Shown here: positions 47,250 to 48,602 of the stretch, one piece after another
Layout of the letters: the number at the start of each line of letters is the position of its first letter
Position numbering within the stretch: the stretch's first letter is position 1
Assembly (NCBI GenBank): GCA_035939775.1
Contig: DASZFO010000124.1
Span: 1-52,807, forward strand
Direction: 5' to 3'
From: Pirellulales bacterium
GTDB lineage: Bacteria; Planctomycetota; Planctomycetia; Pirellulales; DATAWG01
Length of the DNA: 52,807 bases
Program-made: the position numbers and the translations under genes
The notes under the pieces: model-generated
The model's database searches: none
The model's input: only the letters and a program-made list of their open reading frames with translations
Told to the model about the DNA's origin: nothing

Positions 47250-48343
47250 ATGAGAATAACTGCACTGCTGATTACACTCTACATATTGTTGAATGTCGCG
47301 CCGACAGTTTACTCAGCAACCACCTACTCCATTACTGACCTTGGAACGATTGGTCGATCCCTCAGCACAGGCTGGAGCATCAACGCCAGCGGCTGGATTG
47401 CCGGTGAGTCGACTACAACTGGTAATGCGGTGGATCACGGGTTTCTTTATGACGGCACGATTCACGACCTGGGAACTCTCGGCGGAGCGTATAGCGAAGC
47501 CTTCGGCATCAATGCCGTCGGCCAAGTGACTGGCGAGGCCGACGTATTCGACAGCGGATTTCATGCGTTTCTTTACGATGGAACGATGCACGATTTGGGG
47601 ACGCTCGGGGGAAGCAACAGTCGCGGTCGCAGCATTAACGCTAGCGGCGAACTGACAGGTTGGGCCGAAACGACTGTCGACGTCGCGACTCGCACAGCCG
47701 CGACTCACGCATTTCTCCATGACGGCTCGATGCACGACCTTGGTACGTTCGGTGGACAGTACAGCGAAGGCTGGGGAATTAACGACAGGGGCCAGATTGC
47801 AGGCGGTGCCAATACAGCCGGCAATGCTTCGAGTCACGCGTTCCTCTATGATGGCACGATGCACGATCTGGGAACGCTTGGTGGAGTCAATAGTGACGGC
47901 TTCGGCATCAACGCAAGCGGCAAGGTGACGGGCGAGGCGGACACTTCCAGTGGTGCAACTCACGCGTTTCTCTATGACGGCACGATGCACGACCTGGGAA
48001 CCCTCGGCGGAGACTCGAGCGAAGGTTTCGGCATCAACGTCAGCGGCCAGGTGACGGGCTGGGCATATACAATCGGCGACGCCGCGCAGCATGCGTTTCT
48101 CTATGTTACCCCCGACGGAATGGTCGATCTCAATTCACTCATCAGTCCCGCCTCTGGATGGATCTTGGTCGATGCCTACGCCATCAACGACCGCGGCCAA
48201 ATCACGGGAGAAGGGGCGATTTGTGGCGCGACGCATGCGTTCCTGCCACCCCGACGCCCGAGCCGAGCACATTTGTGCTCGCCGGATTGGGAATGCTGGG
48301 CGCCCTCGGCTATATTCGTCGCGCACGAAGAGCATCCCGATAG
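47250..48343 (+). pseudogene. HAF-repeat PEP-CTERM protein, frameshifted before the sorting signal
   Basis: Frame one runs from ATG 47250 with a signal peptide (ALLITLYILLNVAPTVYSA) and about six HAF repeats of the kind HAFLYDGTMHDLGTLGG, alternating with GxGINxxGQVTGxA segments, a beta-propeller-like arrangement. Near 48240 the frame continues as unrelated, charged sequence to a stop at 48359. A -1 frame picks up exactly there with TPTPEPSTFVLAGLGMLGA and ends RRARRASR at TAG 48341-48343: a complete PEP-CTERM signal (PEP motif, hydrophobic helix, basic tail). One missing base in the run CTGCCACCCCGACG explains it. Either a real mutation, programmed slippage or a sequencing error. Intact, it would be exosortase-sorted and exported. 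Confidence 0.85.
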
Positions 48344-48359
48344 GGATGACAGCGATTAG

Positions 48360-48602
48360 CCGGCGGTTGAGGCCGTTAGGCCGACACCGCCGGAAACTGT
48401 GCGATAAGCGGCGCCGACCCCGGCGGCGTCGCAGCGCTCGCATCCCTCCGGGATGCAAATCTCATTTTGAATTCTCGTGACCGGGGGTATCGGCCTGCCG
48501 GCCTCGACCCCCGGCTAATGGCTGGGAACCCTCTCGGGTTCCATTCTTGCGGTTGGCTCCTTATGCGGTTCGCGGCGCCCACGCACTTTGAGCCTTCACC
48601 GA
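48360..48602. repeat. Intergenic region with several hairpin repeats
   Basis: About 240 bases between the HAF gene and the PQQ-propeller gene. It contains GCATCCCTCCGGGATGC, ACCGGGGGT...ACCCCCGGCT with an inner GGC/GGC stem, and GGGAACCC-TCTC-GGGTTCC hairpins. These look like REP-style repeats and may also act as terminators for the two converging genes. Confidence 0.65.

Follow-up and report, generated by a model that had tools for sequence, protein, structure and literature searches.

The PEP-CTERM/exosortase system was described by Haft et al. (2006, PMC1569441). In their proposal EpsH/exosortase recognises the tag, and they count PEP-CTERM sets as some of the fastest-evolving of a genome, the genes being often duplicated and lost. 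The genome examined here includes 74 PEP-CTERM places, detected with a six-frame search, and a single exosortase locus (C28), identified from a PF09721 match of 141 bits made up of two stretches in one frame. The HAF-repeat PEP-CTERM proteins of Planctomycetes (TIGR02913 together with PF07589/TIGR02595) have a signal peptide, tandem HAF repeats, a junction of the HAFL-LTPVPEP type and, downstream of this, a hydrophobic segment and a basic end. These elements recur, with a signal peptide that is probable, in the gene described here, located in a window of 52,807 nucleotides (the whole stretch of DNA analysed), but its PEP-CTERM signal lies one base out of frame, and unlike the proteins served by the PEP-CTERM/exosortase system the protein as assembled is no longer a predicted client. 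The best reading of the locus, and one considered rather probable, is a recent loss of a single base that cost the protein its anchor. The features of the locus are the following:

47250–48359, plus strand: HAF-repeat open reading frame (0 frame), ATG at 47250, TAG at 48357–48359, 369 amino acids
47250–47318, plus strand: probable Sec signal peptide MRITALLITLYILLNVAPTVYSA, judged by eye and hydropathy
47379–48143, plus strand: six HAF repeats scoring over the cut-off of TIGR02913
48174–48245, plus strand: partial final HAF repeat ending ...THAFL, 16.6 bits, below the cut-off
48246–48251, plus strand: frame break, one base short in comparison to the HAFL-LTPxPEP junction of the relatives
48251–48322, plus strand: PEP-CTERM sorting signal (PF07589), -1 frame
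48323–48343, plus strand: basic C-terminal end (ARRASR) and TAG stop (48341–48343), -1 frame
PPRRPSRAHLCSPDWE: peptide stretch specific to the truncated form, if this is made

The TIGR02913 model matched seven HAF stretches in the 0-frame protein (E 3.9e-61), and the protein score of 202.7 bits against the curated cut-off of 22.65 places it among the HAF-repeat proteins. The only Pfam family detected from the same protein was DUF3466. The hydrophobic core of the putative signal peptide reached a hydropathy of 2.63 over 12 residues. The 0 frame makes good sense as far as ...GEGAICGATHAFL, which ends at 48245, while the last 37 codons, which after HAFL read PPRRPSRAHLCSPDWECWAPSAIFVAHEEHPDRDDSD, represent an out-of-frame reading. 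The best 17-residue hydropathy was 0.71 in this 0-frame tail and 1.64 in the PEP frame.

The first-pass annotation had placed a PEP-CTERM signal in the -1 frame of the HAF gene and the end of that frame at 48343, and both were borne out by the PF07589 match, the frame arithmetic and the position of the stop codon. The open reading frame including the tag covers positions 48158–48343 and belongs to the -1 frame (48158 mod 3 = 2, while 47250 mod 3 = 0), and its peptide is ATPTPEPSTFVLAGLGMLGALGYIRRARRASR. PF07589 matched at 48251–48322 with 30.1 bits (E 5.5e-6) in the six-frame search of the whole genome and with 30.0 bits (E 5e-7; cut-off 20.7) in a second search, ranking 21st among the 74 genome matches listed. 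TIGR02595 gave 13.9 bits on the -1 frame, below its cut-off of 16. The motif is thus present, but in the -1 frame and not in the C-terminal part of the HAF protein. A chance match is excluded by the E-value together with the location of the tag, which is exactly where the relatives have it in frame. A near-perfect hairpin, GCCGAGCACATTTGTGCTCGCC, is present at 48262–48283, inside the PEP-CTERM coding sequence shortly past the break.

Of the 57 genomes searched, 20 had HAF genes, the genome of the window itself being one of them. A PEP-CTERM-like tail was present in the HAF frame in 23 of the 24 loci of the relatives (L010–L033), 16 of these being recognised with a purpose-built profile (above 10 bits; constructed from 37 tags of the window's own genome) and seven by eye (L017, L020, L023, L025, L026, L027 and L032). 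The tail was absent only from L024, and none of the 24 loci had an out-of-frame tail. The HAFL-LTPxPEP junction is common to many of the relatives and was present in all 15 loci given to a pattern search, which used a fixed-length in-frame pattern and included 14 of the 24 relatives and a remnant HAF gene of the window's genome, the ten loci with deviating tails being omitted; the 21-nt spacing of the junction was preset by this pattern and is not an independent measure of spacing. As the relatives carry the tail in frame and the window is one base short at the junction, we infer that the window gene was originally a single-frame gene and that the overlap of the two frames is not an ancestral design. 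The junction of the relatives also supports the earlier suggestion that one base is missing near CCACCCC. The missing base would be best placed between CTG at 48243–48245 and ACC at 48248–48250, at the 5' border of CCACCCC and not necessarily within the run of C.

The closest loci found were L010 and L029 of the genome G051, with 54 and 58% identity, respectively. The window genome was the only one of its genus found, and a family search of two genomes for a closer one matched only the window's own. A scan of genome contigs for closer relatives produced ten loci with 33–55% identity, of which L039 and L040 appear to represent the same contigs as L010 and L029 and have the same tails. Three of the other eight (L041, L043 and L048) have an in-frame tail, and no tail was found in L042, L044, L045 and L046. 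In the remaining one, L047 (164–1471, from a Deltaproteobacteria draft contig), the HAF frame stops at codon 257 of the 436 matched and no tail was found; broken HAF genes may thus exist elsewhere too. A pattern scan of viral contigs gave no match.

The first-pass annotation had also noted that two forms of the protein would be made if slippage occurs. Programmed or stochastic -1 slippage, either ribosomal or transcriptional, would yield a soluble and an anchored form, and the -1 frame is indeed open from 47978 to 48343, so that a shift anywhere within 47978–48253 would join the frames; there is also a GC-rich hairpin approximately 15 nt downstream. However, no slippery heptamer of the form X-XXY-YYZ was present in 47978–48262, the longest homopolymer of the gene has five bases, and the fold of 48246–48345 was within the spread of shuffled sequences (z -1.72, 14 of the 200 shuffles being as good). 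Neither was the overlap conserved as would be expected of programmed -1 frameshifting, being kept in none of the 24 loci of the relatives. The two-form proposal was hence not supported, and slippage is considered very improbable. Switching of surface proteins through small indels is known in other bacteria, which counts in favour of reversible phase variation through slipped-strand change of a short repeat, but there is no simple repeat at the site, where the longest run is CCCC, whereas a phase-variable gene would be expected to have one at the switch; this explanation appears more improbable still. With heptamer, homopolymer, fold and conservation all negative, neither programmed frameshifting nor phase variation driven by a repeat is likely.

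In the preferred reading, loss of the anchor through a recent mutation, an ordinary gene for a HAF-repeat PEP-CTERM surface protein would have lost one base between the last HAF repeat and the sorting signal. The loss is taken to be a real and recent mutation, and the break would be young since both the upstream frame and the tag are intact. The HAF protein would still be exported with its signal peptide, but the parts on which the exosortase system depends (PEP motif, membrane helix and basic end) would be missing, and the protein would thus be unanchored and either released or degraded. With neither the helix nor the basic end present in the exported product, the C28 exosortase would find nothing to act on. 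The loss of the anchor, also anticipated in the first-pass annotation, is in this way supported as a prediction, the tag being one base out of frame. Gene callers would assign a false end of 37 residues to such a gene and miss the sorting signal. No printed report of a PEP-CTERM frame break of this kind was found in the literature searched.

The main rival explanation is an assembly or sequencing error, in which case the consensus lost one base while the gene in the cell is intact and its protein normally anchored. This is possible, though not the probable case. The genome is a draft, probably assembled from a metagenome, with 384 contigs and 6.39 Mb, 96.05% complete and 2.72% contaminated; the break is just one base wide and both its flanks look like a working gene. 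According to Cooley & Wright (2024, PMC11017572), many putative pseudogenes are assembly errors. On the other hand, the longest run at the site is only four C, and frame breaks are rare in the assembly, with no strong event elsewhere in the window and two clear ones in 1.56 Mb at approximately 42% sensitivity. Other PEP-CTERM genes of the genome also bear several lesions each, beyond what one error makes. The evidence leans towards real decay, yet the single lesion of the window has just the appearance expected of an assembly error. In either case the cause is ordinary, whether the gene is a broken representative of a known family or the assembly has slipped. That the break is real and also selected, with HAF-repeat proteins released instead of anchored because the lineage loses its PEP-CTERM tags repeatedly and possibly reversibly, is considered improbable.

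The survey of frame breaks was made with a dicodon (codon) model and included 80 stretches and the window, altogether 81 with 1,556,087 nt. Six strong events were detected, of which two were judged by eye to be true breaks, one was unclear and three represented neighbouring genes. The true breaks were located on C245, in a SUMF1-like PEP-CTERM gene, and on C238, in a gene resembling a GTPase; SUMF1-like, GTPase-like and NHL-repeat are names given from reading the translations and do not come from family searches. Of 600 simulated indels the model detected 251, with a weak performance towards the ends of genes (18 of 74 for the last tenth), and the break of the window itself went uncalled. From the two true breaks and the sensitivity of the model, the background can be set at a few breaks per Mb. 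Four broken PEP-CTERM genes were seen against 0.3–0.9 expected at this background in approximately 145 kb of PEP-CTERM coding sequence, although the comparison is uneven, the PEP-CTERM breaks being found from the tag and the background by the codon model, with C245 itself found by the latter. For the two single-indel events alone (window and C118) the excess is weak (P 0.04–0.22). PEP-CTERM genes thus seem to be broken more often than others, the numbers being small and the groups detected by different methods. Among the control families, internal stops were present in none of the 51 matches of DUF1559, which is little different from a few per cent, and in one of the 12 matches of PSD1, and because of the latter the decay is not confined to PEP-CTERM genes. 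The only clear break of the survey outside PEP-CTERM genes, near 17741 of C238 (G000, L193), splits the GTPase-like gene by one frame change.

Five of the 74 PEP-CTERM places had a short upstream frame without running off the contig: the window, a HAF remnant on C323, an NHL-repeat gene on C118, and the tails C238:38527 and C268:55437, the last two being tags without a clear gene attached. Apart from the window gene, the genome has one clear HAF gene, the C323 locus (C323:26316–26704; G000, L035 1440–1915), which resembles the window in that HAF repeats are followed by an out-of-frame PEP-CTERM signal, but while the window gene has one lesion, this is a short and multiply broken remnant, plainly dead. 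Its signal-peptide frame is shifted, an in-frame TAA occurs early in the repeats, a large internal deletion is present, and the PEP-CTERM signal, still strong with 35 bits, is in another frame. The NHL-repeat PEP-CTERM gene (C118:956–1030, minus strand; G000, L083 and L171) has one frame change in the middle of the gene, and the frame of its tag runs without a stop into the apparent signal peptide of the next gene. The SUMF1-like gene (C245 near 18471, minus strand; G000, L136) has both a frame break and an apparent internal deletion, and its tag, VPEPSTGLLAVLACGIMWWCRKRSK, is absent from the 74 matches. In two of the four broken PEP-CTERM genes, those of the window and C118, the break consists of a single indel, as could equally arise from an error. 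The break of the window is in keeping with a broader decay among the PEP-CTERM genes of the genome. A six-frame PEP-CTERM scan is a cheap route to decayed exosortase clients, and here it suggests a high turnover of these surface proteins.

Short frames were present also in other genomes. Among the matches listed, those of the single-contig genomes G007 and G024 included none below 150 amino acids, and G001 had two short-framed PEP-CTERM matches, both at contig ends. In G051, likewise a draft genome from this order, at least eight of the PEP-CTERM matches listed had frames below 130 amino acids; three of these eight were at contig ends and five were tails without an intact gene in frame. The matches of G051 and of the two single-contig genomes fit decay, although they do not amount to a controlled count, and the gene-less tails are perhaps remnants of gene turnover or recombination. 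The tails of G051 on C43, C125, C71, C13 and C17 (L216 and L219–L222) are well conserved and very alike within that genome.
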